DNA of 64,000 nucleotides from Candidatus Kryptoniota bacterium. GTDB lineage: Bacteria; Bacteroidota; Ignavibacteria; Kryptoniales; JAKASW01. The first letter of the stretch is position 1. Each line of letters begins with the position of its first letter. A model generated the notes under the pieces. It was not told the origin of the DNA. It searched no databases and was given only the letters and a program-made list of their open reading frames with translations. Below, one piece after another: positions 35,131-49,616 of the stretch. Made by a program: the position numbers and the translations under genes. The stretch is from positions 1-64,000 of the forward strand of contig DATCTN010000017.1 in assembly GCA_036567965.1 (NCBI GenBank), in the 5' to 3' direction.

Positions 35131-35237
35131 CAAGGACCCTCCTCTTTCATTTCAATTTTGTGCTCGGGGCGGGAACAATCTAATGAGAACGTGCCTGCCA
35201 TGCCACATTCTGGTGGTGAGTCATTTCCATTACTCTC

Positions 35238-35298
35238 TGTCACCCCGAACTCGTTTCGGGGTCTAGGAATAGATGCTGAACCGAGTTCAGCATGACGA
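35238..35298. repeat. short interspersed element made of two palindromes
   Basis: The element begins TGTCACCCCGAAC and ends GTTCAGCATGACG. It contains the palindromes ACCCCGAAC-tc-GTTTCGGGGT and TGCTGAAC-cga-GTTCAGCA. Such 60-base units with TGTCA/TGACG ends are typical dispersed repeats of environmental genomes. It lies in a non-coding gap. Confidence 0.65.
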
Positions 35299-35577
35299 GG
35301 CTTCGCAATTTGAATCACCACATCTTACATCCCTATTTTCTCACCGCTCCATGGCACTCTCCGCTCCATGGTGGGAACTATTTACTCACCCACCACGTTG
35401 GCGCAATATATGGAGGAGGAGAGCACCATATAGGTTCTTGCTGGATTCCCGCCGGGCACTTCAATTCCATTTTGCTTCATGTACCAGGATTTACGCGAGG
35501 TAGGTTCTAATGTACCGGATAATCGCAGAAAATCCCGCGCTTACGTATTGCAACGCATTGTAAACCTTGGAGGTGAA
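35299..35577. other. intergenic region upstream of the beta-helix T9SS gene
   Basis: Nothing coding is supported. The tract CTCCATGG-cactctcc-gctCCATGG at 35,346-35,370 carries a short CCATGG repeat. The promoter of the downstream gene should lie here but is not recognisable. Confidence 0.35.
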
Positions 35578-38500
35578 ATGAAGAAGTTGGCGTTACAGTT
35601 TTGCCTTGCAGCCATCGTGGCTGTGACGGTACAATTCGTCTCCGTCCCGACAGGGAACGGAGGTCAGAAGAAGGTTACGACTCCCACACGAGCAGCACAT
35701 CCTACGCTCCAATCTATAAAGAACAGACACACGTCATCAAAGAAGTCGGGGAATGTCCTCGCATCGATCAGGGGGAAGCGCACATCTTCATTCCGCCGTG
35801 TTTACTTCCCGCACTCGGTGGGCGCGATAACGGTCAACTCCATCGTAGACGAGCCCGCAGTCGACCCGACGCTTGCCGACACCGCGTCGAATGGATTTGT
35901 TACCCTCAGGTCTGCGATCCAGTTTACAAATGCCGCAGCAGGACAGGATACCATCATCGTACCACCCGGTTTGTACAATCTGACGTGGGCGGGACCCGAT
36001 GAAGACACTGCAGCCGCAGGCGACCTCGACATAAACGACAGCCTCGTCATATTGGGGGCGGGAGAAAGTCAGACTGTTATCAACGGAAATACATCGGACA
36101 GGGATTTCGACATCGGGCCTGCCAACTCGAACATTTCGGTGAAAATCACCTCGCTCACGGTGGACGGCGGCTACCCGACCGGAGAGAGCGGGGGAGGAAT
36201 ACAGATGTATGGTGGTACAGTCGAGCTTGACAGCGTGGATGTGGTTCAGAATACCGCCGATCAAAATGGCGGCGGCATCGAGGTCATTTCGGGAACGCTG
36301 ACGATGAATTACGGGATGCTCAGCTCGAACTTCGCGGACTTCAGCGGCAGCAGCTACCAGGGTGGAGGAGCTGACTTCCAGGCAGGGACCGCATCGTTCT
36401 TCAACGTCCATATAGACAGCAACATCGCCGCCAACGGAGGCGGCATCCAGAACGGGGGATCAGGCGCCAATATTTCCTGCAGCTACTGCACTTTCATCGG
36501 CGACAGCACTATTGCAGGCTTTGGATCTGGAGGAGGCGGATTCGATAACGACGACGGCAATTTCACGATGGACCACTGTATCCTCAAACATAACTACGGC
36601 GACTTGTACTCCGGCGCCATCGATATCGACGGAGGCGATTGCTCCGTAATGAACTGCATCATCGACAGCAATTACACGGCGGCATATGTCGGCGGCGTGT
36701 ATACCGGAGGAAACAGCGTCACGATGATGAATGACAGCGTGAGATGGAATTCCGCGGCATTTGACGGCGGAGGAATCGCAGCCAGCGACTCTCTCAGGAT
36801 CTACAACTCTGATGTCAGCTTCAATAGCGTTGGAAACCGCGGCGCAGGAATATTCTTCTACGGAATACCTGTTTATGACACTCTATCGAATGTCAGGATC
36901 TGCGGCAACTCAGCCGCATTAAGCGGAGGCGGAGTCTATCTGAGCGGTCCAGTTTATTTCACCAATGTGGAAGTAGACAGCAACACATCGCTGAGCACAG
37001 GCGGCGGCGTCGAAGACGACATTGGTTTTCTTATATGGTCAGGTGGAACACTGCGAAAGAACACAAGCTCCGGTCCTTCTTCGGCATTTTATTTCAATGG
37101 GTCGTTCGCCGATTCCATAGTCAATGTCGACGCATCAGGCAACGGTTCGAACTTCTTCACAAACAGTTCCAGTCCCGTCTACGTCTCCAGGAACGGTTCA
37201 GTCGCCGCGACTCTCGCTCTGTCATCCGAGACATCTCAGACCGCCGGAGTCAATGGACAGGTTAACGCTAACGGCGCGACTACGACGGTGCGGTTCCTTT
37301 ACGGCACATCGCCCGACTCATTGAAGGACAGCGTCCTCGCGAGCCCCGGCAGTGTGGGCGGCAACTCGGATACTCCCGTCTCCGCCGTCTTGTCCGGATT
37401 ATCGGCGGCTACAACATATTACACGGCTGTCGCAACCACGAGCTCGAACGGATACATAGTCGGCGCGATAGAACAATTCAACACACTCCCGCCCTATTCC
37501 GGTTCGCCGGGGAACGCGCTTAAGTTCGATGGCAGTTCGGACTACGTCAGCGCGCCCGTGCCCACGACCGCCACCTCAGGATTCACCATGGAAGGATGGG
37601 TCAAATGGAACGGCGGCACTCCGAGCAACCAGGTTCTCTTCTACAGCGGTAATACGTCCTCAACCGGGTACGGAATTTTTCTGGACCAGGGCGCGTCGAA
37701 TGCGGCCAGCCTCCTCGCTGGAGGGAATTTCATTCAAGATTCATATTTCACGCTGCCGGTCGGAGCGTGGACACATGTCGCCCTTACGAGAGACGGTTCC
37801 GGTTTGTGGACGCTGTACCTGAACGGGGTGAGTCAAGCTCTTGGAAGCGGCGGACCCAATGTGCCGGCGGGCAATCTCTTTATCGGCGGACACAGCGGCT
37901 TCTCAACTGAGACATTCAACGGGACGATCGACGAGGTTCGCTTCTGGAGCGTCAGCAAAGATTCAAATCAGATCAGGGAAGACATGCACCTCGCGGTGCC
38001 CCCCACCACTTCAAACCTGATCACAGAGTATCAGTTTAACGATTCAACAGGGACCACCGCCTTCGATGTCGTGAGTGGTCAAAACGGCACTTTGTCGAAC
38101 TTCAGTTTCAATACGAGCGATGGATGGGTCACTTCGACCGCGCCTGAGGGAAGCGGCACAAGCGGAGACAGCACCGGCTTCGAGAGCGGGACGGCGAACC
38201 TTGGTCACGTGTCGCTTGCGACGACCGACGCGTTCGATACCACCATCGAGATAACCGCAACTGAAATCGACGAAGTCCCCGATTCACTTCCTCCCAACCC
38301 CGGCGCACTTCTGACCAACCGGTACTGGGTGATAACGCCGTTCGGCATCGCTGGAACGTATTCGACCAACGTTACTTTCACAGTGCCGTCATATTTCACG
38401 GCGAACGGGTCGGAGGCGACTTCAAGCTACACTCTCTTCCATCGAGGTGATGAAGACGACGGAAGCTGGACAACGGCTGTGAGCGGAGCTGCATCGGTAA

Positions 38501-39171
38501 CCGCCACAACAATCACGTTTAACGGGCTAACTTCGTTCAGCCAGTTCATGATAGGTTCATCCGACGTCTCGCTTGCCGTCTCGGTAACGGACTTCATTGC
38601 AAGCACCGACATCGGAAGTGTCACGCTGTCATGGAAGACACGGAGTGAAGTGGGCAACGCCGGGTTCAATTTGATGAGACAGAAGTTAGGTGCCAGCAGT
38701 TGGCAACTGGTAGGAAGCTATACTTCAAACAAGAGCCTCGTCGGTCTCGGGACAAGCAGCACCGGGAAGGACTACCAGTTCACCGACTCCCACGTCTCGT
38801 CAGGCACGACATACATCTACAAGCTGCAGAGTGCGTCGACGAGCGGCACGACGAAAGATATGAACACACTTCAGGTGACAGTCGGCGTTCCGAAGGCTTA
38901 CGCGCTTTATCAGAATTATCCGAACCCATTCAATCCAAGCACGACGATAAGGTTCGATCTCAAACAGACATCGACTGTGACGATCACGGTGTATAATGTT
39001 CTTGGACAGAAAGTGATGGAACAGGATTACGGGACAATGGACGCCGGGAGATACAACGAGACATTCAGCATGAACCGATTCGCAAGCGGCGTGTACTACT
39101 ACAGGATAAGCGCGGTCGGTGTCAACGGCGAAAAGTTCGAGTCGATCAAGAAGCTCGTGCTGATGAAATAA
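35578..39171 (+). CDS. exported beta-helix / LamG protein with T9SS type A sorting domain
   Basis: TTGGAGGTGAA precedes the ATG at 35,578; earlier in-frame starts lack a site. The 1,197-residue protein has a signal peptide (KKLALQFCLAAIVAVTVQFVSV). A CSLREA-like entry segment follows (TLRSAIQFTNAAAGQDTIIV), then a right-handed beta-helix of about 400 residues with Gly-rich turns (GGGIQMYGG, GGGIEVISG, GGGVYLSG). Next come a Fn3-like module, a LamG domain (GFTMEGWVKWNGG ... WTHVALTRDGSGLWTLYLNG) and a C-terminal Fn3 plus sorting domain nearly the same as in the protein at 1,580-6,175 (YALYQNYPNPFNPSTTIRFD). It is probably a surface adhesin or polysaccharide-binding protein. Confidence 0.92.
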   Translation: MKKLALQFCLAAIVAVTVQFVSVPTGNGGQKKVTTPTRAAHPTLQSIKNRHTSSKKSGNVLASIRGKRTSSFRRVYFPHSVGAITVNSIVDEPAVDPTLADTASNGFVTLRSAIQFTNAAAGQDTIIVPPGLYNLTWAGPDEDTAAAGDLDINDSLVILGAGESQTVINGNTSDRDFDIGPANSNISVKITSLTVDGGYPTGESGGGIQMYGGTVELDSVDVVQNTADQNGGGIEVISGTLTMNYGMLSSNFADFSGSSYQGGGADFQAGTASFFNVHIDSNIAANGGGIQNGGSGANISCSYCTFIGDSTIAGFGSGGGGFDNDDGNFTMDHCILKHNYGDLYSGAIDIDGGDCSVMNCIIDSNYTAAYVGGVYTGGNSVTMMNDSVRWNSAAFDGGGIAASDSLRIYNSDVSFNSVGNRGAGIFFYGIPVYDTLSNVRICGNSAALSGGGVYLSGPVYFTNVEVDSNTSLSTGGGVEDDIGFLIWSGGTLRKNTSSGPSSAFYFNGSFADSIVNVDASGNGSNFFTNSSSPVYVSRNGSVAATLALSSETSQTAGVNGQVNANGATTTVRFLYGTSPDSLKDSVLASPGSVGGNSDTPVSAVLSGLSAATTYYTAVATTSSNGYIVGAIEQFNTLPPYSGSPGNALKFDGSSDYVSAPVPTTATSGFTMEGWVKWNGGTPSNQVLFYSGNTSSTGYGIFLDQGASNAASLLAGGNFIQDSYFTLPVGAWTHVALTRDGSGLWTLYLNGVSQALGSGGPNVPAGNLFIGGHSGFSTETFNGTIDEVRFWSVSKDSNQIREDMHLAVPPTTSNLITEYQFNDSTGTTAFDVVSGQNGTLSNFSFNTSDGWVTSTAPEGSGTSGDSTGFESGTANLGHVSLATTDAFDTTIEITATEIDEVPDSLPPNPGALLTNRYWVITPFGIAGTYSTNVTFTVPSYFTANGSEATSSYTLFHRGDEDDGSWTTAVSGAASVTATTITFNGLTSFSQFMIGSSDVSLAVSVTDFIASTDIGSVTLSWKTRSEVGNAGFNLMRQKLGASSWQLVGSYTSNKSLVGLGTSSTGKDYQFTDSHVSSGTTYIYKLQSASTSGTTKDMNTLQVTVGVPKAYALYQNYPNPFNPSTTIRFDLKQTSTVTITVYNVLGQKVMEQDYGTMDAGRYNETFSMNRFASGVYYYRISAVGVNGEKFESIKKLVLMK

Positions 39172-39240
39172 AATCGCCGACCCGGAAAAAGAGCAGAACG
39201 CGGCTCGGAGAGACGGTGCTGGCTTATAAGTCCGATCGCT

Positions 39241-39368
39241 CTGTCTTTCCAACAGAATGAGTCCGTCCGAGTAATCGGACGTATGAACGAGTGGAGGAAG
39301 CTTTCGCATGACTCCACAGTGGTATTATTGGTGAGCAGTTCAAAGGATTACGCATCGTCGGTCGATCC
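39241..39368 (+). repeat. ~160 bp repeat element, copy C (diverged, 3' truncated)
   Basis: The sequence follows copies A and B with GAATGAGTCCGTCCGAGTAA, GAGTGGAGGAA, GACTCCACAGTGGTATTATT and GATTACGCATCGTCG. Its last 21 bases overlap the 3' end of the GIY-YIG gene, so the stop codon of that gene is supplied by the repeat. The terminal ATGACAAA is not reached. Confidence 0.7.
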
Positions 39369-39674
39369 ATGCTCCTCCTCCCCGCATGTTTCATAGTACA
39401 GGTCCCTCCATGCAGCGTTCTCCTTTTCGATTAAATTTATCTTCTTTTGCCTCCGCCAACGTTTCAGTTGCTTTTCTCTTTGGATTGCCGACCAAACATC
39501 CTCTGTCTCCTCGTAATAAACCAGCCGGTCGACGTTGTACCGCTTCGTAAACCCTTCCAGTTTCTTGTGCTCATGTTCGGAGACCCTATGGCACAAGTCC
39601 CCCGTCATGCCGACATACAGGACTCGCGAATCACTTGCCATAATGTATACAAAGTAGGATCGCCCTCTGAACAT
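39348..39674 (-). CDS. GIY-YIG endonuclease family protein (COG2827 type)
   Basis: The ATG at 39,674 has AGGAGG four bases upstream. The 108-residue protein contains the nuclease core: the GIY/YIG pair appears as YFVYIMASDSRVLYVGMTG. The catalytic Arg follows in DLCHRVSEHEHKKLEGFTKRY, and the Glu in AIQREKQLKRWRRQKKINLI. Stand-alone proteins of this type are common in genomes rich in dispersed repeats, but their job is not established. The usual end near WRDLYYE is extended by about 12 residues (CGEEEHGSTDDA) that are partly encoded by repeat copy C. Further copies of the same repeat lie 100 bases upstream of its start. Confidence 0.92.
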   Translation of the reverse strand: MFRGRSYFVYIMASDSRVLYVGMTGDLCHRVSEHEHKKLEGFTKRYNVDRLVYYEETEDVWSAIQREKQLKRWRRQKKINLIEKENAAWRDLYYETCGEEEHGSTDDA

Positions 39675-39770
39675 AAAACCTCCTGAGGACAGCAAAATAA
39701 TGATCGGCATTCCAAATGTCTACTTGATCAGGAGAACCCATCAACGAATTACTTGCCTTTGCGTTTCCGC

Positions 39771-39930
39771 TTTGTCATTCCGACCGAATGAATCCGTCCG
39801 AGTATATCGGACGGATGAGTGAGTGGAGGAATCTTTTATGGGACTCCATAATGGTATTATTGAAGAGTACTCTGGAAGATTTCTCGTCGTCACTTATCGA
39901 ATCCTCATCTGACTCCTCGAAATGACAAAG
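39771..39930 (+). repeat. ~160 bp repeat element, copy A, with terminal inverted repeats
   Basis: It opens with TTTGTCATTCCGACCGA and closes with TCCTCGAAATGACAAAG, giving about 17-base imperfect inverted termini. Inside lie the palindrome TCCGTCCGAGTATATCGGACGGA in part (ends TCCGTCCGA/TCGGACGGA) and the block GAGTACTCTGGAAGATTT. It has no coding capacity. Size and ends resemble a miniature inverted-repeat element. Confidence 0.85.
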
Positions 39931-39940
39931 ATAGTTTTGA

Positions 39941-40099
39941 TTTGTCATTCCGACCGAATGAGTCGGCCCGAGTAATCGGACAGATGAATGAGTGGAGGAA
40001 TCCTCTGCATGACTCTACAAAAGTATCACTGAGGAGTACTCTGGAAGATTTTTCGTCGTCACTGATCCAATCCTCATCCGACTCCTCGAAATGACAAGG
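39941..40099 (+). repeat. ~160 bp repeat element, copy B, tandem to copy A
   Basis: It is about 80-85% identical to copy A by eye over the full length, with the same termini (TTTGTCATTCCGACCGA and TCCTCGAAATGACAAG). Ten bases separate it from copy A. The central palindrome has lost symmetry (GTCGGCCCGAGTAATCGGACAG), and differences between the copies are spread evenly, which points to an old duplication. Confidence 0.85.
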
Positions 40100-41024
40100 G
40101 GCGTTTTATTATTCCAATGAATCTTCATCAAGCCTTGCTGAAGTATCACTGATGATTACTGGAGCAGATTCCATGTAATCACTGCAGCAATGCACTTTAT
40201 CTTTTCTCCAAGCCTGCATCTGAACATCAACATAAACTAGCTCTGTACCATGATTCACGGGGCGTAGTCCCTACACCAAAAGGGATTCTCGCACTCATCT
40301 GCATCGTTACAACCATGTCCGGGCAGCCGGACTTGCGATAGAGGCAGAGCGGTAGACCGTATCGGCCAGTCGTTCCACGGCACAGGGAAATGCCGGAACG
40401 TTAAATCTGCGCCACAGAGTATCGATGCGACATGTCAGGAACACAAAACAGCGTGCCTGCAGGGCCAAATCATCATGCCTTAGCCACATTGCGGCTTTGC
40501 GCGATGTCTCCGTTCCGTGCCGCGGCGGCGCTGCAACGCGCCCGAACGTCAATTCAGCGTGCCACGACCACGATGCAGCTTGGCGCGCCGTCAATCATCC
40601 TGGACGGACCGCGACGCAGCGAGCCTGGAACTGGTTGCATCCTGTCTCAGGTCCGATGTCATATGTCCTGACCCCGTCAGCTCGCATGCGTGCGCAGAAG
40701 AAAGCGCCGTTGAAAGCTGCGGTGACGCGGAAGTCGATGAAGAATCCACCGAAAGATCAATAAGCAGTATGGCATGGAAGGCTGTCCGTCAAAAGCGGGG
40801 AGCCTTCAGATTGATTGACAATGGCGAAGAGTGCAGTTAAATTTCACGCAGAAGCATTAGGGAAAATGCAGCGATGGGTTCCATAAAGAAAATAAACGCC
40901 ATATAGCGTATTTCATCCTATACGGGCAGCATAAACGGCGTTTGTCGTGATTGAAGTAGTTAGCTGCCACGCGGCGTCAGGAGAACTCGGATGATTTATC
41001 CCTTATCTAAGGAGGCATGATAAT
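40100..41024. other. 925-base region without a recognised gene
   Basis: The first part (40,125-40,180) echoes the repeat block AAGTATCACTGA...GATTACT...GCAGATT, perhaps a fourth worn copy. From about 40,310 to 40,700 the sequence is GC-rich, with open frames on both strands that look like composition artefacts. A hairpin with arms AAACGCC and GGCGTTT lies at about 40,892-40,953 and is followed by GTTAGCTGCC. I see no RNA or protein I can name. Confidence 0.4.
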
Positions 41025-41438
41025 ATGAAAGGTATATGTGTCACTGTCATCCTCGCTGTCACATCCTTTGCGTGTTCGAAGGATGCAACTGTGAATGTTA
41101 AGCCCGGGTATGATTACTCGATTGACCAGACTCGGCTTTGCTTCTGCCCCGGGAGTGGCGATTCAGCTCGGATCTACGTTGTCGCGGACACAATTTTCGG
41201 CGCGATCTCCTTATCCGACAATACACCCCTGACAATTTCGCAAAGGACCAGATTCCGAACAATAAAGGGTTTGCTCGATGAAATGGCTCGCTGCGACACA
41301 TCAATTTTTAATATCGAGGTTAGATACGATTCAGTGTATGGTTTCCCTGCATGGTTGTCGATCTATCCAAAACTTTCAAGCGGTCTATACGACGCGAGCT
41401 TAGCTTACTCGACTCACAACTACGCGAAGTACAAGTAA
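41025..41438 (+). CDS. DUF6174-like lipoprotein
   Basis: AAGGAGG precedes the ATG. The 137-residue product has a lipoprotein signal (MKGICVTVILAVTSFAC). It shows a pattern known from DUF6174 proteins: a Cys-x-Cys segment (YSIDQTRLCFCPGSGDSARIYVV), a middle helix region (TIKGLLDEMARCDTSIFNIEVRYDSVYGFPAWLSI) where VRYD...YGFP is the signature, and a short acidic/aromatic end. Function is unknown. It starts about 65 bases after a GTTAGCTGCC sequence, which matters for the cassette hypothesis. Confidence 0.75.
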   Translation: MKGICVTVILAVTSFACSKDATVNVKPGYDYSIDQTRLCFCPGSGDSARIYVVADTIFGAISLSDNTPLTISQRTRFRTIKGLLDEMARCDTSIFNIEVRYDSVYGFPAWLSIYPKLSSGLYDASLAYSTHNYAKYK

Positions 41439-41764
41439 TGCTCCACGTTGCTGGAAGTGCACTCTCTCCCCGTGGACGCCGCGCGGCGACTGACACGCGG
41501 GACAAAGACGCCGACCTGCGTCGCGATGGAGAGCATCGCGATTTCGGTCGAGAAGCTCCCCGACCAAGAGCGTGTCCCGTCCAAATTATTTATATGTCGG
41601 GATGCCGTGAAGCGGCATCGGGACAGGCTATTTATGTATCGCTTCCCCGAAGGGGTCCTTCGGACATGCCGCGCACATAATATAAAGAAGGAGCGCGGCA
41701 CGGACATAGTTCTCGCGGACGTTAGTTGCAATTGCCTTTCGGAGTCAATGAAAGGAGGCTTATT
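41439..41764. other. intergenic region with three strong palindromes
   Basis: No gene is present. Hairpins are a 31-base palindrome at 41,595-41,625 (arms TGTCGGGATGCCG and CGGCATCGGGACA), CCCCGAAGGGG next to GTCCTTCGGAC at 41,646-41,664, and GCCGCGC/GCGCGGC around 41,668-41,699. GTCCTTCGGAC also occurs in the insert within the decayed tRNA copy. The sequence CGCGGACGTTAG at 41,714-41,725 matches the right end of the hairpin at 43,919-44,046. Confidence 0.6.
41595..41664. repeat. cluster of extragenic palindromes
   Basis: The 31-base palindrome at 41,595-41,625 has 13-base arms around TGAAG. Twenty bases later come CCCCGAAGGGG and GTCCTTCGGAC. The latter units match those in the decayed tRNA copy at 10,703-10,810. 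They act as a shared repeat family of this genome; one of them may also end transcription of the upstream lipoprotein gene. Confidence 0.6.
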
Positions 41765-43900
41765 ATGACCTGGTTTGGAAAAATGTTTATCTTCTTATCA
41801 TTCGTTTTGGCATCATTGACCCCCGAGTCGAAAGCTCAATGGGTTCAGACTAATGGCCCTACTGGCGGTTCAGTGAACGCACTTGCGCTCTGTGGGAACA
41901 AACTCTTTGCGTCGACTGCTTATGGCATGTATGTTTCAACGGACAAGGGCAAAATGTGGACGATCGTAAATGGCAGCCCAACGGGCGTGGAAAAGAGCGC
42001 AATTGTTGTCAGTGGATCCGACATCTATACAGGTACCTCTAACCAGGGTGTAGCCATTTCGACCGATGCCGGGTTGACTTGGACAAGTGGTGACAGCGGT
42101 CTGTCTGGCGGCTGGGGGGTGCTCTCTCTCGCAGTGCTTGGAGAAAAAATCTTTGCAGGCACGTACACAGCCGGAGCATTTGTTTCAACGGACAAGGGAG
42201 CAACGTGGAATCATCTTCCTATATCGGCTATGGACATCCGTTCTTTTGCCGTTGTCGGTAAAGAGATTTATGCTGGAACAGCAGATGGCGGCATATTCGG
42301 TTCAACTGACAGTGGTGCGACTTGGGTAGCCATGAACAACGGGTTGACTTATTTGACAGTCTTGTCTATTGCCGTGGAAGGAGACAGCCTATTTGCCGGA
42401 ACAGGTTGCAACGCCGACGGAACTGGGGGCGGAGTGTTCCTTTCTGAAGATGCTGGCATGAGCTGGAAGGCTTTCGGCACAAACCCATCTGAGGAGGGTA
42501 TTTGGGTACTCGCTGTTCTTGGCCAAAACCTCTTTGCAGGCGGATGGGACGGCGGATTGTATCTTTCAAAGAATTCCGATACGTCCTGGACTCCCGTGAA
42601 TTCCGGGCTCACGAATGTCAACATCCATTCATTTGCCATAGACAATGGCGAAATCTTCGTTGCCACGGACGGGGGAGTTTTTGTCTCATCGGACAGTGGG
42701 GTGCAATGGCGACCCGCTAATGCTGGATTGGATTATTCCAGCGTGCAGTCTCTCGTCGCGAATAAAGGTAATCTCTTTGCGGGGACGGAAAACGACGGAG
42801 TCTTTTCTACTACCGACAAAGGCGCCGATTGGATGCCTGTTAACAACGGTCTGGCTACTGGCAGCATCCAATGTCTTGCGGCTGACAGTTCGGATCTATT
42901 TGCAGGAACTCCGTCCGGGGCTTTTCTCTCGACTGATAACGGTGCATCATGGAGCGCCATAGAGAGCGGGCTTCTCAACACAAGTATTCTCGCACTTGCG
43001 ATTAAAGACAGTCAGATTTTTGCCGGAACAGTCGGTGGAATCATTTTATCCACTGACAGGGGGATGAGTTGGAGTCGCGTCAACATAGGTATTTCAAGGA
43101 CTTTTGTCTATTGCGTTCTCTTAAGCGATTCCTATATGCTTGCAGGCACAGACAGCGGCATAGTTCGTTCCACCGACGCCGGCAAAACTTGGATGCCCGT
43201 CGATAGCGGGCTTGACCAATTCAAGGTCCATTGCCTGGCAGGAAATGGGGATGATGTGTTTGCGGCTGCCTGGCACACTGAAGGCGTCCTAGGGGATGAT
43301 GGCGGCACCGTGATCATGCCCGGATCTGGCGTTTACTTCTCCAGGAACGGCGGCGTATCGTGGACTTTTTCGGATAGCGGGCTGACAAATGTGATTGTGA
43401 ATTCTATCGCTGTAAGCGGAATGGACGTATTTGCAGGAACAAACGGCGGCGGAATCTTCGTTTCCAAAAACGCCGGCGTCAGTTGGTGCGCTGTCAATGC
43501 CGGGTTGACGAACCTGAATATTGGAGCACTTGCAATTGTCGGAGATAGTCTTGCTGCGGGTACAGAGGGCAATGGGGTCTGGCTGCGCCCTGTCCCTGAG
43601 ATGACACCGGTGAAAGAAAACCCCTCTCGCATATCTAGAAGCTTCTCACTTCTGCAAAACTATCCTAACCCCTTTAATCCGTCAACTTCAATCAGATACG
43701 AATTGCCAGTGAACAGCTTCGTGACGGTGAAGGTCTATGACGTACTCGGAAGAGAAGTGAAAATATTGATTAATGAACGTCAGAATGCAGGCGACCATTA
43801 CGTGCAATTCAATGCCATGAACTTACCAAGTGGAGTTTACTTCTATCGCCTGCAGGCTGGTACATTCGCAGAAACAAAGAAGCTGATAGTACTCAAATGA
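41765..43900 (+). CDS. exported BNR beta-propeller protein with T9SS type A sorting domain
   Basis: AAAGGAGG precedes the ATG at 41,765. The 711-residue protein has a signal peptide (MFIFLSFVLASLTPESKAQ). It carries about thirteen ~45-residue repeats built around S.D.G..W and ..G..LFAGT, e.g. STDKGATWNHLP, SSDSGVQWRPANAGL and STDAGKTWMPVDSGL. The tail is a T9SS sorting domain (LLQNYPNPFNPSTSIRYELP ... SGVYFYRLQAGTFAETKKLIVLK). The repeat design is that of photosystem-assembly/sortilin-like propellers. A large surface-exposed binding platform is likely; no catalytic residues are evident. Seventeen bases after the stop begins an attC-like hairpin. Confidence 0.92.
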   Translation: MTWFGKMFIFLSFVLASLTPESKAQWVQTNGPTGGSVNALALCGNKLFASTAYGMYVSTDKGKMWTIVNGSPTGVEKSAIVVSGSDIYTGTSNQGVAISTDAGLTWTSGDSGLSGGWGVLSLAVLGEKIFAGTYTAGAFVSTDKGATWNHLPISAMDIRSFAVVGKEIYAGTADGGIFGSTDSGATWVAMNNGLTYLTVLSIAVEGDSLFAGTGCNADGTGGGVFLSEDAGMSWKAFGTNPSEEGIWVLAVLGQNLFAGGWDGGLYLSKNSDTSWTPVNSGLTNVNIHSFAIDNGEIFVATDGGVFVSSDSGVQWRPANAGLDYSSVQSLVANKGNLFAGTENDGVFSTTDKGADWMPVNNGLATGSIQCLAADSSDLFAGTPSGAFLSTDNGASWSAIESGLLNTSILALAIKDSQIFAGTVGGIILSTDRGMSWSRVNIGISRTFVYCVLLSDSYMLAGTDSGIVRSTDAGKTWMPVDSGLDQFKVHCLAGNGDDVFAAAWHTEGVLGDDGGTVIMPGSGVYFSRNGGVSWTFSDSGLTNVIVNSIAVSGMDVFAGTNGGGIFVSKNAGVSWCAVNAGLTNLNIGALAIVGDSLAAGTEGNGVWLRPVPEMTPVKENPSRISRSFSLLQNYPNPFNPSTSIRYELPVNSFVTVKVYDVLGREVKILINERQNAGDHYVQFNAMNLPSGVYFYRLQAGTFAETKKLIVLK

Positions 43901-43918
43901 CGGAACGGGGAACTGCAA

Positions 43919-44046
43919 CTAACATCAGCAACAATGACGCGGATTAAGAGCAGATCGGGGCAGGCTGTCCACAAATAACATATTGACCAAAGGAGTTCGC
44001 TCAATCCGCCTATCGGCGGACTGCATTGTTGCCGCGGACGTTGGCA
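43919..44046 (+). other. attC-like hairpin (integron recombination site candidate), left bracket
   Basis: Outer box CTAAC (43,919-43,923), a 4-base spacer, arm GCAACAATG (43,928-43,936) and a second arm GCGGATT (43,939-43,945) are matched on the other side. The matches are AATCCGC (44,003-44,009), CATTGTTGC (44,024-44,032), a 7-base spacer and GTTGG (44,040-44,044). This AAC...GTT frame with paired inner arms and unequal unpaired spacers is the layout of attC sites. Length (about 125 bases) and position just after a stop codon also fit. The R boxes are not perfect consensus, so the call is provisional. Confidence 0.5.
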
Positions 44047-44272
44047 GCAAGGCTAAACGACCGCACAACCCGACACTTGTAAAGTCATCAGTGGACTGTC
44101 CGCTGACAGTTCACTATTCGGCAGACACAACCGAACTTCCACAGCACAACATCTCTCAGCCAACTTTCGTGAGACAGTCCTTCGTTGACTCATAGAAAAA
44201 TAACGGCTGACGATCATTCGGACTTACAGCCAACCACACATAAAACCTTTCGACAAAAAAATTTGCGAAAAA
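44047..44272. other. non-coding stretch before the arsR promoter
   Basis: The composition is rich in AC dinucleotides (CCGCACAACCCGACACTTG, CACAACCGAACTTCCACAGC). The short reading frames crossing it are not convincing. It looks like flanking sequence brought in with the operon that follows. Confidence 0.4.
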
Positions 44273-44320
44273 TTTGCGTAGTTAGATAACTATACATATA
44301 TTTGTAGTCAAATAGCTACG
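44273..44320 (+). promoter_or_regulatory. Bacteroidota-type promoter with ArsR operator palindromes
   Basis: TTTG (44,273-44,276) and TATATTTG (44,297-44,304) are spaced by 20 bases, close to the Bacteroidota consensus TTTG-N19-TAnnTTTG. The perfect dyad TAGTTAGATAACTA (44,279-44,292) lies between them. A wider inverted repeat GCGTAG ... CTACGC frames 44,276-44,320. Binding of the encoded ArsR-type protein here would block its own operon. The start codon follows within about 12 bases of the likely transcript start. Confidence 0.72.
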
Positions 44321-44322
44321 CA

Positions 44323-44649
44323 ATGAATTTAAGACGAGACGTATTCCAAGCCATAGCAGACCCGACAAGAAGGGCTATACTTCTGTTGGTAGCCTCACAA
44401 TCTATGACAGCAGGTGCGATAGCCTCAAACTTTGACACCGCAAGACCGACAGTTTCAAAACACTTGCAAATACTCACCGAGTGCGAATTGCTTGAACAAG
44501 AGCAGAACGGCAGAGAAATCTACTATCACTTCAATCCCAAAAAGATAAAGGAACTAGCAGACTTTATTGAACCATTCCGCAAAATGTGGGATGACAGGTT
44601 TAAAAAATTGGAAAGCACAATGAAAAAATACAAATCAAAAAAGGGGTAA
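44323..44649 (+). CDS. ArsR-family winged-helix transcription regulator
   Basis: The 108-residue protein is a small winged helix: [73 protein letters not shown]. It lacks the ELxVCDL metal site of arsenic sensors. It belongs to the subgroup that travels with AHSA1 (SRPBCC) proteins and probably senses something other than metal. Its GC content is clearly below that of the flanking genes. It is the first gene of an operon of four or five. Confidence 0.95.
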
Positions 44650-44653
44650 TAGG

Positions 44654-45121
44654 ATGGAACAAAAAACAAATATCAATGTCGAAGACGGCAAACAGGAATT
44701 AACGATTACAAGGGAGTTTGATTTGCCGTTGGAATTACTTTTTAAAGCGTACATAGAGCCCGACATTGTTGCGCAATGGATGGGAACGAAAGTGCTAAAG
44801 CTTGAAAATAAAAAGCATGGCAGTTATCAATTTGAAACGACCGATGCTCAGGGAAAAGTGGTATTTCAGGCCAATGGGGTAATCCATGAATTTACCCCGA
44901 ACCGGAAAATCACACGGACATTTGAAATGGAGAATACGCCTTTTGGCGTCCAGCTTGAGTTCTATGAATTTGAACGTCTGACTGACGACACCAGCAAACT
45001 CAATATGCACGTGATATATGAATCGGTTGCACAAAGAGACCAGGTGCTAAAAATAGGGATGCCGCAGGGCTTAAACATGGCACATAACCGAATACAAGAG
45101 ATCGCAAACAAATTGAGGTGA
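44654..45121 (+). CDS. SRPBCC / AHSA1-domain protein
   Basis: The 155-residue protein has the START-like fold typical of Aha1 C-terminal relatives: LTITREFDLPLELLFKAYIEPDIVAQWMGTKV at the start, GSYQFETTDAQGKVVFQANGVIHEFTPNRKITRTFEME in the middle and a C-terminal helix (GMPQGLNMAHNRIQEIANKL). The fold encloses a hydrophobic ligand pocket. It starts four bases after arsR. Members paired with ArsR and DoxX are common in Bacteroidota, with no defined substrate. Confidence 0.93.
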   Translation: MEQKTNINVEDGKQELTITREFDLPLELLFKAYIEPDIVAQWMGTKVLKLENKKHGSYQFETTDAQGKVVFQANGVIHEFTPNRKITRTFEMENTPFGVQLEFYEFERLTDDTSKLNMHVIYESVAQRDQVLKIGMPQGLNMAHNRIQEIANKLR

Positions 45122-45127
45122 CAAACC

Positions 45128-45520
45128 ATGACAAAGAGAAATAAAATTATCTATTGGGTCTTCACCCTTTGGCTTGCCTTAGGAATGGTATCAACCGGAG
45201 CGGGGCAGCTATTGAGGATGAAAACGGGACAAGGCGCTGTAGATATGATGACGCATTTGGGATATCCCGTCTATCTTCTGACAATACTAGGTGTCTGGAA
45301 AATGTTGGGGGTGGTAGCGGTTCTCATTCCCAGATTTCCTCTATTGAAGGAATGGGCTTATGCAGGCTTTTTCTTTGCCATGTCGGGAGCGGTGTTTTCA
45401 CATATCGCATCAGGTGATTCCGTGAATGCAATATTTCCCTCGTTGGGACTTCTAATCCTGACTGTGGCATCATGGTATTTCAGACCCGCGAATAGAAAAA
45501 TCATTTCAATTAATCAATAG
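45128..45520 (+). CDS. DoxX-like family membrane protein
   Basis: The 130-residue protein has four membrane helices (IIYWVFTLWLALGMVSTGAGQLL, HLGYPVYLLTILGVWKMLGVVAVLIP, LLKEWAYAGFFFAMSGAVFSHIASGD, AIFPSLGLLILTVASWYF). The DoxX-like pattern ...GHLGYP..... KMLG.....P..P..KEW.YAG.FF is clear. It follows the AHSA1 gene by six bases. Quinone- or thiosulfate-linked roles known for other DoxX proteins cannot be assumed. Confidence 0.93.
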   Translation: MTKRNKIIYWVFTLWLALGMVSTGAGQLLRMKTGQGAVDMMTHLGYPVYLLTILGVWKMLGVVAVLIPRFPLLKEWAYAGFFFAMSGAVFSHIASGDSVNAIFPSLGLLILTVASWYFRPANRKIISINQ

Positions 45521-46393
45521 ATGAACAGATTGATTCACAAGATGGAACAAAACAATAAAATAAAAGGACCTGATAACACAGCAGTAAGAACAGCTTTATG
45601 GAGAGCTTTGCACATGCAAGTAGACACAAAGCCTTATGTACTTGAAGATGAAATTGGCTTGAAATTGATAGCTCCGCCCGATGATTGGCAGCAGCGTCCT
45701 GATATGAAATTTACAAAACGCCTTAGGGCATCTATTGTAGCCCGTGGTCGTTTTACAGAAGATCTAATTATTGAACAAAGCAAAGAAGGAATTAGTCAGT
45801 ATGTTATTCTTGGTGCAGGACTTGACACGTTTGCTCAACGCAGACCCGACATTGCTTCCAAATTTCAGATATATGAAATTGACCAACCCGGTACATTGGC
45901 CTGGAAACAACAACGATTAATTGAAATTGGTTTTGGTGTTCCGGAATACCTGCGTTTTGTTCCTGTTAATTTTGAAACTACTTCCTGGTGGGAACAGTTA
46001 TTAATAGCAGGATTTGACACCGGCAAACCTGCTGTTGTTGCCTGTGCTGGAGTTAGTCTGTACCTCACAAGAGAAGCAATTACTTCTACGCTAAAGCAAA
46101 TTGCGACACTTGTGACAAGTTCAAAACTTGCTATGACATTTTACTTGCCAATGGAACTTCTTGATGAAGAAGACAAACCTATGCAGGAAATAGCAGAGAA
46201 AGGCGCTCGTGCAGCAGGAACTCCGATGGTAAGTTTTTTTACGCCTGATGATATATTGACTTTAGCTAGTGGAGCGGGTTTTAAAGAAGCAAAAACGATA
46301 TCAACAAAAGATATGGAACAATATTATTTTACGAATAGAACCGACAATCTTTTGCCTGCAAGTGGAGAAGTATTCTTATTGGCAACGACGTAG
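45521..46393 (+). CDS. class I SAM-dependent methyltransferase (leucine carboxyl methyltransferase-like)
   Basis: The ATG directly follows the DoxX stop; a second ATG at 45,542 (MEQNNKIKGPD) may be the true start. The ~290-residue protein shows the TIGR00027/LCMT pattern: DNTAVRTALWRALH, RARGRFTEDLI-type motif (ASIVARGRFTEDLIIEQ) and the glycine loop QYVILGAGLDTFAQRRPD. It also has the acidic EIDQPGTLAWKQQRL that binds the ribose of SAM and VACAGVSLYLTREAI. Substrates of these proteins are mostly small carboxylates or polyketides and are unknown here. Confidence 0.92.
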   Translation: MNRLIHKMEQNNKIKGPDNTAVRTALWRALHMQVDTKPYVLEDEIGLKLIAPPDDWQQRPDMKFTKRLRASIVARGRFTEDLIIEQSKEGISQYVILGAGLDTFAQRRPDIASKFQIYEIDQPGTLAWKQQRLIEIGFGVPEYLRFVPVNFETTSWWEQLLIAGFDTGKPAVVACAGVSLYLTREAITSTLKQIATLVTSSKLAMTFYLPMELLDEEDKPMQEIAEKGARAAGTPMVSFFTPDDILTLASGAGFKEAKTISTKDMEQYYFTNRTDNLLPASGEVFLLATT

Positions 46394-46417
46394 ACAACAA
46401 ATTTGACCCACATACAA

Positions 46418-47014
46418 ATGAATCCCAAGGTTGATTTCTTTTTTAATAAAGCCAAAAAGTGGAAAGAAGAATTTGAGAAATTAAGAATGATCGTTCTCGA
46501 CTGCGGGCTGACCGAAGAATTGAAGTGGGGTTGTCCTTGTTACACGTTTCCCGCCTCAGCGGGCAGGCAGAAAAGTAACATAGTTTTAATACATGGCTTT
46601 AAAGAATACTGTGCGGTTTTGTTTTTCAAGGGTGCCTTGTTACATGATGCCAAGAGTATTCTCATCCAACAAACTGAGAATGTGCAGGCGGCGCGCCAGG
46701 TTCGGTTCACCAATCTTAGGGATATTTTTGAGATGGAGACCATCTTGAAAACCTATATTCATGAAGCCATTGAAGTGGAAAAAGCCGGTTTGAAAGTGAA
46801 CTATAAAAAGACTTCAGAGTTCATAATTCCTGAAGAATTTCTAAATAAATTAAATAGAATCCCAGCCTTGAAAACTGCCTTTTATGCTTTGACGCCGGGA
46901 CGGCAAAGAGCATACATTTTTTATTTTTCTGCACCAAAACAATCCAAAACCCGGGAGTCAAGGGTTGAAAAATGTATGCAGCAAATTCTCAATGGAAAGG
47001 GATTAGATGATTAG
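46418..47014 (+). CDS. YdeI/OmpD-associated family protein (DUF1801 core) with an in-frame palindrome insert
   Basis: I take the ATG at 46,418 (MNPKVDFFFNKAKKW); the TTG at 46,403 has no ribosome site. The 198-residue protein has the DUF1801 start (FEKLRMIVLDCGLTEELKWGCPCYTF). It continues NIVLIHGFKEYCAVLFFKGALLHD and ends with the YdeI part (PEEFLNKLNRIPALKTAFYALTPGRQRAYIFYFSAPKQSKTRESRVEKC). Between CYTF and NIVLIHG lie the residues PASAGRQKS. Their DNA (CCCGCCTCAGCGGGCAGGCAG) resembles the perfect palindrome just after the gene, so a palindromic repeat seems to have inserted in frame. Function of the family is unknown. Confidence 0.9.
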   Translation: MNPKVDFFFNKAKKWKEEFEKLRMIVLDCGLTEELKWGCPCYTFPASAGRQKSNIVLIHGFKEYCAVLFFKGALLHDAKSILIQQTENVQAARQVRFTNLRDIFEMETILKTYIHEAIEVEKAGLKVNYKKTSEFIIPEEFLNKLNRIPALKTAFYALTPGRQRAYIFYFSAPKQSKTRESRVEKCMQQILNGKGLDD

Positions 47015-47020
47015 TACATT

Positions 47021-47042
47021 CCCTGCCTGCCGGCAGGCAGGG
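47021..47042. repeat. perfect 22-base palindrome built of CCTGCCTG/CAGGCAGG
   Basis: The sequence is a perfect inverted repeat centred on CCGG, seven bases after the YdeI stop. It can form an 11-bp stem without loop bases beyond the centre, so it may stop transcription. The same kind of sequence is seen in many Bacteroidota as a dispersed palindrome, which agrees with an imported origin of the operon. Confidence 0.75.
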
Positions 47043-47396
47043 ATGGGAAAATGGATTAATCAAACTTCAAGTTACTACCTGACTTTGCATTCATTCGATC
47101 TCCTTTTTGGATCGCAGGTAACACTCAATCAGATAATCTAAAAAATGGAGACATAGAACTTGAACGAACAGAATCGACCACAACAGGCGAGATCACAAGC
47201 CTACACTTTCGTATTAAAAGGTAATTTTTGAAAAATAATATTCACCCCTAACCCCTCTTTCATTTTTCAAAGCGGAAAAAATCAAAATTATAAGTAATAG
47301 TGATATCCTATTATTGGATATATGAACGCAAAATACTTTTTGAACTTTCTCCGATTCGCTCCGAGCCACGTTGCACTGTCGGCTTTGCCGTGGGCC
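47043..47396. other. AT-rich non-coding sequence after the imported operon
   Basis: No gene is supported. The segment at 47,222-47,290 is A/T-rich with runs of T and A. It then passes into TCCGATTCGCTCCGAGCC before the attC-like hairpin. Confidence 0.4.
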
Positions 47397-47482
47397 GTTT
47401 AACAGCGATTATACGGAAAGCTTGTTGCACTTCGCTTTCCCAGATTGGCTTCGCCAACTTCGTATAGTCGCAAACGTTAGCC
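47397..47482 (+). other. attC-like hairpin (integron recombination site candidate), right bracket
   Basis: GTTTAAC (47,397-47,403) fits the R'' consensus RYYYAAC. After one base comes the arm GCGATTATACG (47,405-47,415). The opposing arm CGTATAGTCGC (47,461-47,471) is complementary except for one G-T pair, then a 4-base spacer, then GTTAGCC (47,476-47,482), one base off the R' consensus GTTRRRY. Two inner stems (GGAAAGC/GCTTTCC and TTGGC/GCCAA) fill the middle. The 86-base length is typical of attC. No integrase gene is in the window. Confidence 0.6.
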
Positions 47483-47772
47483 GCCGTAGCCGCTCGCTGA
47501 ATCCGTCCGAAGAACAAGGACGGACTGTGTGGCGCGGCGATAAGTTTACCTCGTTGCTAGTTGAAGGGATCGAGCTATAAGCGTACCTGTTAACGGTTGC
47601 TAGAATTTAAATAAGCGGTTGACTTGTTGAGGTTTATAGGGAAAGTTAAACTACAGTCGTAATATCAGGATGAAGATGGTGAAAAAAACCGTAAGCACTG
47701 TAGTGGATGTGGGTCTGAGAGAACAAAGAGGAATGGGTCTCGTGTCGTTCGAAGCCTTGGGATGCGGAGCGA
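47483..47772. other. non-coding region between attC-like site and pilin-like remnant
   Basis: It contains an imperfect palindrome GTCCG-aagaacaagGACGGAC-like at 47,505-47,524 and no supported gene. A short hydrophobic N-terminus normally expected for the following remnant is not readable, so the 5' part of that gene is probably lost here. Confidence 0.4.
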
Positions 47773-48114
47773 GCGGTGAGTGCGGACCGGAATCAGGTCA
47801 TTAACGACTTGAACAATATAGCAGCTCAGGCACGACAATATTTCCGCAGACCCACCTCGATGGGCGGAGGAGGATTATCTTTCGAGGGCTTCAGGCTGTC
47901 TGATGCCAACGCCGCCTATTCGAACTGATACTTTCAGATTACACAAACAACACCCTCTATAAGCGATTACGATGGCTTTCCTAGTGAACCTGCGTCTGAT
48001 CCATATTCTGTCATAATCGTCGGCTGGGGAAATGAAATTGGGATTGATGGTACCCATAAAGTGCAGGCATACATCTTGAAAATTACATGCGCTTTGGAAA
48101 TACGACATCGGTAA
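47773..48114 (+). pseudogene. remnant of a small pilin-like exported protein
   Basis: In one frame the DNA reads AVSADRNQVINDLNNIAAQA, RQYFRRPTSMGGGGLSFEGF, RLSDANAAYSN, a TGA stop at 47,926, and then YFQITQTTPSISDYDGFPSE, VIIVGWGNEIGIDGTHKVQA. The DRNQVINDLNN...YF.RP..MGGGG..F.GF block is typical of a short protein seen often in Ignavibacteria-like genomes. There it follows a hydrophobic N-terminal helix (prepilin-like). Here the hydrophobic start is gone and a stop interrupts the frame, so it is a decayed copy. The family link is from memory of such proteins and not verified. Confidence 0.7.
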
Positions 48115-48284
48115 TCGACTTCAGAGTTGGAGACCTTGTTGAATAGGTTTTTCAGAAGTACGGGAAGAATGAGGATAGCAGCGGCACTGTGGAGTATCTC
48201 GAAGAAAGCATCGCCAGAGGGATTTGGTTCGAAACATATCAGGGGAGAGTAACTCAGGTGACGATGGGATGGTATACTCCATGA
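48084..48284 (+). pseudogene. second decayed coding fragment, out of frame with the first
   Basis: The frame reads YMRFGNTTSVIDFRVGDLVE, a TAG at 48,144, then VFQKYGKNEDSSGTVEYLEE and SIARGIWFETYQGRVTQVTM before TGA. The pattern ...VGD..E.V...YG......T.EYL.....GI.F......RV..VTM has the feel of a conserved small exported protein with one internal stop. It starts inside the end of the pilin-like remnant, so two unrelated gene pieces were fused or deleted together. The identity is unknown. Confidence 0.5.
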
Positions 48285-48647
48285 TGGGTAAGCAAAGAAA
48301 CATCCCTTTCCAGGAGTTTCAGCCTCGACCGCACCTGATCTGGAAAATAGTTTCGGCTTTCACTGAGAGTCATCAAATACTCCGAGACCTGACGGACTCT
48401 GCGGTCATTTCGCAAAATATTTATTGACAATCGCTCCCGATTCATAAAACGCATGGACGGGGCATGCTGCGATTAGCGACCGTCGAACGATCTTTGAACG
48501 GCCAGCGAAGACGAGCAACCCGAGGTATCACATTATGCATTGCTATGATTATGCGGCCTGCTAATCTTTGCTTGTCGTGCAAATGTATCTGGAGTGCTGG
48601 CCCGCGTCGAAGATGGAGGAACATCCGAGTAGGAAGTCTCGATCCAT
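48285..48647. other. non-coding region, no gene recognised
   Basis: Short frames on both strands do not show a family pattern. The promoter of the downstream outer-membrane protein gene should lie near its right end; AGGAAGTC upstream of 48,648 is a weak ribosome site. Confidence 0.4.
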
Positions 48648-49340
48648 ATGAGGATTTATCTCCTCACTCTGTGCATTTCAATTCTGCTGGTGGAGTCAGC
48701 GTTCACCCAGGTTGCTCATCTGCAGAGTGAAGAAAACGGATGGGGCGCGGTCGCGGGTCTAATATCAAATACTGATGGTTCAGGAATCGGCGGCTCCGTA
48801 GATTATTGTTGCGGTGGAAATGTGGACGCAGCATTGTCCCTCGCTCAAATGAATGTCATGCGTTCATATCCATACACTTCCTTCCATGACCGCACGCTGA
48901 CCGGCGGCGCGTACTCGCTTGGGTTTCTAATGCATGTCGTCAAGGAAATTTCCATGTCAGTCCCTTTTTCTGTCTCGTTATCATCGGGGTTCGCTTTCGG
49001 ATCTTATTCTGCGGCCTTGAGCGGTTACCAATCGCGGCTGGCGTTCCGTGACGGACATTTTTATTACGGAGTTTCGTTCCGTCGTAACTTCAATATTTCT
49101 TCAGTGGTATATGTCCAACCATCAATTGAAATAGATTATTTGGAGGGCTTTCTGGCTAGCGAGGGAGTCAATGTAGAAGGAGAATATGAAAATCTCCATA
49201 TGTATACGGCTACACTTGCTTTTCCGCTGGCGATCAGGACTTCTGGAACGGGAAGCATGGTGATTGATCCGTCCATCTCAGTCGACAAGAATCGCGTTAG
49301 GCTGACGCTCGTTGCCGGATTCCTGTTTGGAAGTAACTGA
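48648..49340 (+). CDS. outer-membrane beta-barrel-like protein of unknown family
   Basis: The 230-residue protein has a signal peptide (MRIYLLTLCISILLVESAFTQ). Alternating hydrophobic/polar strands rich in Gly, Ser, Tyr and Phe follow (SVPFSVSLSSGFAFGSYSAA, GHFYYGVSFRRNFNISSVVYVQPSIEI, MVIDPSISVDKNRVRLTLVAGFLFG). It ends near a Phe-Gly-Ser-Asn. This suggests an eight- to ten-stranded barrel in the outer membrane. No family is recognised. It is flanked by non-coding DNA on both sides. Confidence 0.72.
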   Translation: MRIYLLTLCISILLVESAFTQVAHLQSEENGWGAVAGLISNTDGSGIGGSVDYCCGGNVDAALSLAQMNVMRSYPYTSFHDRTLTGGAYSLGFLMHVVKEISMSVPFSVSLSSGFAFGSYSAALSGYQSRLAFRDGHFYYGVSFRRNFNISSVVYVQPSIEIDYLEGFLASEGVNVEGEYENLHMYTATLAFPLAIRTSGTGSMVIDPSISVDKNRVRLTLVAGFLFGSN

Positions 49341-49587
49341 TAGTAGCAGAGATCCTTGGAGTCGTCCGCACGTAGGCGCCTGCAATCCATGATCCTTTAC
49401 TCAGCTGCTCGTGATGATACTACGTCTTCCATCGGAGTGGCAAAGAAATAACTCGTTCTCACTTCATGACGCACAGATAAAACTCATCATAAAAAGCTCA
49501 AACCATATGACCAACAACCAATAATCTGTACCGGGAATTGCTTTCGGATTAATCGGTCCCGCTCCTTTATACCTCCTTTAGCACTTC
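49341..49587. other. intergenic region between the barrel protein and the P-II gene
   Basis: No gene is visible. The right end carries TTTATACCTCCTTTAGCAC (49,566-49,584), which resembles the E. coli KdpE target upstream of kdpFABC, followed by the 29-base box described in the next entry. Confidence 0.5.
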
Positions 49588-49616
49588 GACTCTCCTTTTT
49601 ACACTTCCTTGATTGC
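49588..49616 (+). promoter_or_regulatory. candidate KdpE-type box upstream of the P-II/porin pair
   Basis: About 22 of 29 bases match the sequence at 51,195-51,223 upstream of kdpC, including CTTTTTAC and CTT(G/A)ATTGC. The core CTCCTTTTTACACTTCC, with TTTATAC 20 bases to the left, resembles the pyrimidine-rich TTTATAC...TTTACAC target of KdpE in E. coli. It is therefore a candidate site for the KdpE encoded at 60,481. The similarity between the two boxes is seen; the binding protein is inferred. Confidence 0.5.

Follow-up and report, generated by a model that had tools for sequence, protein, structure and literature searches.

The Locus and Its Two Hairpins

The DNA considered in this study, referred to below as the window, is a stretch of 64,000 nt from Candidatus Kryptoniota bacterium (GCA_036567965.1, contig DATCTN010000017.1, positions 1 to 64,000, forward strand), placed by GTDB in the lineage Bacteria; Bacteroidota; Ignavibacteria; Kryptoniales; JAKASW01. 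It contains two attC-like hairpins that flank an operon of five genes, with presumed gene cassettes to their left (Table 1). I will refer to genomes, loci, and contigs by the letters G, L, and C, each followed by a number, and to the outer boxes of a hairpin as R'' and R', in that order.

Table 1 Features of the probable array in the window, from left to right.
Feature	Position	Strand	Remarks
attI-like remnant (putative)	40882–40965	+	Ends in core GTTAGCT, 40959–40965
DUF6174 gene	41025–41438	+	Pfam PF19671, 6.9e-11; cargo of presumed cassette 1 (40960–41721)
Degenerate attC-like site of the genus family	41488–41727	+	R2 25.3 bits, E = 0.002 over 396 kb
BNR/Asp-box protein with type IX secretion (T9SS) C-terminal domain	41765–43900	+	PF15902, PF02012, PF18962; cargo of cassette 2
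Left hairpin, attC-like	43917–44046 (130 nt)	+	R'' AACTAAC 43917–43923; R' GTTGGCA 44040–44046
Operon ArsR - AHSA1 - DoxX-like - LCM methyltransferase - DUF1801/OmdA	44323–47014	+	Identified by Pfam
Right hairpin	47397–47482 (86 nt)	+	R'' GTTTAAC 47397–47403; R' GTTAGCC 47476–47482

An earlier note on this DNA had ascribed to both hairpins AAC/GTT boxes and spacers unequal by three bases, and both do have them: the spacers are 1 and 4 nt in the right hairpin, around a stem of 13 positions, and 4 and 7 nt in the left, around a stem of 9 bp, neither stem with a bulge. The position, boxes and length it gave for the right hairpin are exact; the left hairpin begins two bases earlier than the 43919 it gave. 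Its account of the surroundings also stands, in that all five genes between the hairpins lie on the plus strand, the gene upstream of the left hairpin stops 17 nt before it, and GTTAG precedes the genes at 41025 (at 40959) and 41765 (at 41721). As to the possibility, raised in the same note, that the hairpins are dispersed repeats found elsewhere, each is single-copy in the genome. A scan of the genome_contigs set with the exact pattern of the right hairpin gave no matches.

Folding as DNA gives z scores of −3.0 (plus strand) and −2.4 (minus strand) for the right hairpin, and −0.3 and −1.3 for the left. A scorer trained on 20 IntI-linked attC sites of the class (the weights of the scorers were set by hand) ranks the right hairpin at the top of the window, with a score of 33.8 that none of 100 shuffles attained (shuffle maximum 32.2) and that lies within the range of true attC sites of the class, 23.9 to 41.2. 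The left hairpin, at 23.3, scores as background, with about seven such matches expected by chance. A covariance model, R1, built from eight IntI-type attC sites of a congener, matches neither hairpin, a silence that proves little, since R1 is weak for long loops and missed several of its own training sites.

A Family of Hairpin Sites in the Genus and Class

When 480 kb of the same genome and loci of congeners were scanned with the IntI-trained scorer, a family of sites was found with a shared form that is not that of IntI sites: an R'' ending in TAAC, one or two bases, a stem of about 10 to 12 bp of variable sequence, a conserved loop carrying GACGCT and GCGGCACGACT, the matching half of the stem, GGAC, and finally GTTRG. 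In an alignment of eight of these sites, 12 of 23 pairs show compensatory changes, and a second covariance model, R2, was built from them. At E ≤ 1, R2 finds 284 matches in 12 of the 13 genomes of the genus, 29 of them in the source genome; at E ≤ 1e-6 it finds matches in 52 of 391 genomes of the class, the class-wide table having used stricter filters by which weak matches were lost. The right hairpin, whose loop differs from that of R2, is not matched by the model.

From 190 rows, excluding that of the window, I drew 144 distinct sites in which both the AAC and the GTT box are present. The best stem is without a bulge, and so without extrahelical bases, in 126 of the 144, as compared to none of the 20 IntI-linked attC sites. 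Spacer lengths that differ by exactly three, the feature first noticed in the hairpins of the window, are found in 111. A scorer trained on the 144 ranks the right hairpin first (37.6) and the left hairpin second (27.3) in the whole 64 kb. Among 1000 shuffles of positions 40800 to 47600, a score of 37.5 was attained by one and a score of 27.2 by 63, and two matches of at least 27.2 occurred together in only one.

Cassette Structure and Exchange between Species

The sites occur in arrays. Neighbouring sites lie on the same strand in 149 of 151 cases, with a median gap of 918 bp, or about one gene per site (L095 and L196 overlap, and one site is therefore counted twice among the 151). The longest open reading frame between two sites shares their strand in 131 of 136 intervals; it begins a median of 54 nt past R' and stops a median of 36 nt short of the next site.

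In integrons, the bases that follow the crossover G at the start of a cassette are complementary to the R'' of the site that closes it. The same relation holds here, and its test, the strongest in this study, presupposes no model of function. In 71 of 105 pairs of successive sites (pairs more than 4 kb apart or lacking AAC/GTT boxes were excluded, as were loci L095 and L098), the R' of the first is perfectly complementary to the R'' of the second, as compared to a mean of 14.5 and a maximum of 26 in 2000 shuffles. The mean match over the four variable positions is 3.48, as opposed to 2.34 with shuffled partners (maximum 2.62 in 2000), while R' and R'' of the same site match at a mean of 2.34, no better than shuffled.

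Blocks of sequence common to different species have an excess of ends close to R'. One of 3093 bp (99.7% identity), shared by G004 and G011, ends +3 and −24 nt from R', and one of 561 bp (93.8% identity), shared by G009 and G011, ends −3 and +7 nt from it. Overall, 28 of 107 block ends lie within 30 nt of R', as compared to 2.8% expected at random. Hits shorter than 300 bp, below 80% identity, or within a locus were dropped from this set, in which two of the 28 shared blocks are, or begin at, genes for the recombinase described below.

A Recombinase at the Head of the Arrays

Contig C31 of the source genome encodes a tyrosine recombinase of 297 amino acids, which I call IntX, with a site of the family 928 nt downstream and an attI-like GTTAG between the two. 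Homologues of IntX with E ≤ 1e-65 are present in 52 of 391 genomes of the class and in 9 of the 13 of the genus. Within the genus the gene occurs at 12 places. Nine of these could be tested, and all nine have sites of the family downstream on the same strand and none on the opposite strand, the first of them 622 to 2162 bp from IntX; at the other three the contig ends no more than about 210 nt past the gene. Loci L189, L190, and L192, from another family, have sites downstream of IntX as in the genus. Soon after the stop codon of IntX there is a GTTAG or GTTAT motif, a candidate attI, in most of the 13 loci listed. The contigs carrying IntX or IntI in many metagenome-assembled genomes (MAGs) often stop soon after the recombinase gene, a pattern that breakage of the assembly at repeated sites would produce. 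The first cassette after IntX on C31 (L002:302-1093) encodes a defence-type protein, a CAP12/Pycsar protein with a TIR domain.

IntX is not an integron integrase by the usual criterion. Where IntI has an insertion of 29 residues, IntX has two or three. It scores 223.6 bits against the NCBIfam model of the integron integrase (TIGR02249), below the cut-off of 265, and 222.5 bits against the XerA-like model NF040815, above its cut-off of 220. In a first tree (52 rows, four of them host Xer), IntI forms one clade with support of 100/100, and IntX forms one clade at only 84/73. In a second (58 rows, 36 of them named relatives), IntI again has 100/100 and the insertion-free relatives do not form one clade; two long Xer rows do not fix the root of this tree, in which IntX may or may not be sister to IntI.

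Across the 391 genomes of the class, the presence of the family sites follows IntX, not IntI, as judged from sequence matches. Both IntX and R2 sites are present in 34 genomes, only IntX in 18, only the sites in 18, and neither in 321 (odds ratio 33.7, p = 7e-23, kinship ignored); outside the genus they occur together in 25 genomes, with IntX in 43 and R2 sites in 40 (odds ratio 29.6). IntI and R2 sites, by comparison, coincide in 13 genomes, with IntI in 70 and R2 in 52 (p = 0.17). The list of 70 was drawn at E ≤ 1e-60 and includes one genome beneath the curated cut-off, above which IntI is present in 69.

Interpretation and Alternatives

I consider it highly likely that the hairpins are cassette recombination sites of an integron-like system run by IntX. 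The features on which this reading rests are read directly from the genomes: the fixed geometry of the sites and their variable but complementary stems, the arrays of genes and sites on one strand, the complementary ends, the cassettes shared between species, and the arrays that begin directly after IntX. In such a system IntX would cut after the G of R', that is, between G and TT, would excise a gene together with its site as a circle, and would insert circles at the attI-like site beside its own gene, the array growing from that end. Recombination of the hairpin would probably, as in integrons, take place on a folded single strand. Because IntX is without an insertion like the I2 helix of IntI and most sites are without extrahelical bases, the choice of strand would have to depend on something else, perhaps the loop or the 3 nt by which the spacers differ. 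The bulge-free sites would agree with the lack in IntX of I2, the helix that docks the extrahelical bases in IntI (PMC7790495).

Several observations weigh against this reading. The left hairpin taken on its own is close to background, and 18 of the 144 family sites fit better with a bulge. The AAC/GTT boxes are in part a result of the search itself, since the sites of the family were first found through them, although the arrays, the complementarity of cassette ends, and the linkage to IntX lie outside that bias. Of the block ends, 79 of 107 lie away from R', many of them elsewhere inside sites, and the operon between the hairpins does not have the ends of a cassette (see below). The association statistics take no account of kinship among genomes. 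Two congeners (G004 and G002) carry IntI. Outside the genus, 15 of the 40 genomes with R2 sites are without IntX at 1e-65, and six of these 15 have IntI, so that IntI might be using the sites in trans.

This last point bears on the alternative that the hairpins belong to an ordinary cluster of attC sites lacking an integrase (CALIN), composed of IntI-type attC sites left behind after the loss of intI or served by the IntI of relatives. IntI integrons do exist in the class and in the genus, and the score of the right hairpin is one that a true attC of the class might have. I nonetheless regard this alternative as unlikely, in view of the failure of R1 to match either hairpin, the bulge-free stems that no IntI-linked attC shares, the presence of the sites in genomes with IntX rather than with IntI, and the place of IntX at the head of all nine testable loci of the genus. 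Locus L071 (G004:C4:66000-82000) holds a canonical IntI array, at least eight cassettes long, in which intI points the same way as the cassettes; two cassette systems thus coexist within one genus.

It is less probable still that IntX is a bystander and the sites are recombined by the host XerC/D or another tyrosine recombinase. The source genome does have several other tyrosine recombinases, and G007, G012, and G008 have R2 sites and no IntX at 1e-65, but a bystander would hardly stand at the head of the array, on the same strand, at all nine testable loci and three more from another family, nor be tied to the sites across genomes by an odds ratio of 30 to 34. That the sites are merely dispersed palindromic repeats or transcription terminators, as the conserved loop of many members and their place a median of 36 nt past a stop codon might suggest, is very unlikely: a repeat family has no reason to pair R' with the R'' of the next site in preference to its own, and 149 of 151 neighbours lie on one strand.

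Relation to Known Systems

The IntX arrays resemble chromosomal integrons and CALINs in having a recombinase at the head, a putative attI-like site, cassettes of genes on one strand, hairpin sites with RYYYAAC/GTTRRRY boxes, complementary cassette ends, and precise exchange. They differ in that IntX is without the domain specific to IntI, its sites mostly have no extrahelical bases and have spacers that differ by three, and IntX at the loci of the genus is transcribed in the direction of the cassettes. Cargo is in part common to both kinds of array: BNR or other proteins with the T9SS C-terminal domain are found in IntX arrays and in IntI arrays of the class (L174:13997-16024, L078, L083).

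XerA resolves dimers at dif, and in Xer/dif (pdif) modules genes are flanked by dif-like sites of 28 bp. With XerA and the other simple tyrosine recombinases that pass NF040815 ("site-specific tyrosine recombinase/integron integrase"), IntX shares a length of about 300 amino acids and the lack of the IntI insertion; unlike them, IntX genes head arrays of hairpin cassettes.

An integron-like subgroup of tyrosine recombinases in which the IntI insertion is not fully conserved has been reported (PMC8138268), and proteins like IntX may therefore have been seen before; the available part of that paper describes no arrays or sites for the subgroup. IntI itself is defined by the additional domain, whose I2 helix is described as docking the extrahelical bases of attC, as needed for cassette capture, and as occurring in no other protein (PMC7790495). 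Surveys filter by the IntI-specific domain (PMC9668308, PMC2426708). A search of the open literature, preprints being outside its scope, found no description of arrays such as these.

Insertion-free relatives of IntX have similar sites beside them, as judged by a box-stem scorer at a few named loci, in Flavobacterium, Arundinibacter, Rufibacter, a Spirochaetota MAG, and a Peregrinibacteria MAG. Over 44 named loci from far relatives (no more than 51% identity), a score of at least 30, a threshold of my own choosing, was reached downstream (147 kb) by 17 matches on the strand of the recombinase and none on the other, and upstream (213 kb) by none on the strand of the recombinase and seven on the other. 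Six of these seven are in L261 (Candidatus Peregrinibacteria), where family-like sites upstream of an insertion-free recombinase, on the opposite strand, make a divergent layout as in classical integrons. R2, applied to 32 named loci, gave four weak matches.

On balance I lean, by no great margin, toward a broader view, that the IntX arrays constitute a second kind of integron, present beyond the class, whose recombinase never had I2 or diverged before it arose and whose hairpins are bulge-free. They would then be a surviving relative of the step that is missing between Xer and IntI. If the reading of the hairpins as IntX sites is correct, bacteria may collect genes in a second way that has been overlooked, and such arrays would escape surveys or be counted as orphan CALINs. 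If IntX works as proposed, cassette capture would need neither I2 nor extrahelical bases, and a natural system, in addition to backward evolution, would be at hand for testing how integrons arose.

The Probable Orphan Array of the Window

As part of that same reading, and with equally high confidence, I take positions 40.9 to 47.5 kb of the window to be an orphan array, which begins with the attI-like remnant, the DUF6174 gene, the weak site, the BNR/T9SS gene, and the left hairpin, in that order. The 82 nt at 40882–40963, ending at GTTAG, are 90% identical to C17:118111-118192, the head of a second array of the same genome that directly precedes R2 sites starting at C17:118651. A tblastn search found no coding remnant of IntX beside 40882–40965. 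The array of the window may have lost its own IntX or never had one, and could be served in trans by that of C31. The weak site is of a long form with an insertion, its R'' decayed and its R' (GTTAGTT) at 41721–41727. The R'' of the left hairpin with its flank, TGCAACTAAC, is the exact 10-nt complement of GTTAGTTGCA, which contains the R' at 41721, and the BNR/T9SS gene and left hairpin therefore make up cassette 2, 41722–44040. A protein of the same type is also cargo in the array of C31 (L174:13997-16024). Positions 43851–43924 are 82% identical to L204 of a congener.

The earlier note had seen here a cassette region with attC-like sites and no integrase, and in substance that description survives, without the sites being established as IntI-type attC. 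It had suggested looking for an intI gene elsewhere in the genome: no protein of the source genome matches TIGR02249 above its cut-off, and what is found is the recombinase-headed array on C31. Its cassette unit was the operon between the hairpins, but the unit whose ends match is cassette 2. The R' of the left hairpin (GTTGGCA) and the R'' of the right (GTTTAAC) are not complementary, and G059 has a copy of the operon (79% DNA identity over 44221–45541 and 46417–47021) that lacks the hairpins, so the operon may well not be one multi-gene cassette. Judged by its composition and relatives, the operon is foreign: its GC content is about 0.41, as compared to about 0.50 in its surroundings, other families of the class contain close homologues of it, and it has no operon-wide match within the genus. 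A plasmid search with the operon gave no match. Two cassettes may have fused to form the operon, or it may have been inserted later.

The genes for TauE (80–85% amino acid identity) and P-II/BBP2 are adjacent in G006 and near each other in G002. The interval between them (35134–49612) is 14 kb in the window, as compared to about 170 nt in G006. Because the two adjoin in G006 and lie close together in G002, 35.1 to 49.6 kb of the window is a region of variable insertion. Comparison of its synteny with that of congeners turned up no empty site with an R' footprint, and a match of G008 to 47577–47693 ends in an assembly gap and is uninformative. The region includes, at 39260–40080 near a GIY-YIG gene, three non-coding repeat units (GAATGA.TC.G.CCGAGTA.TCGGAC..ATGA..GAGTGGAGGAA).

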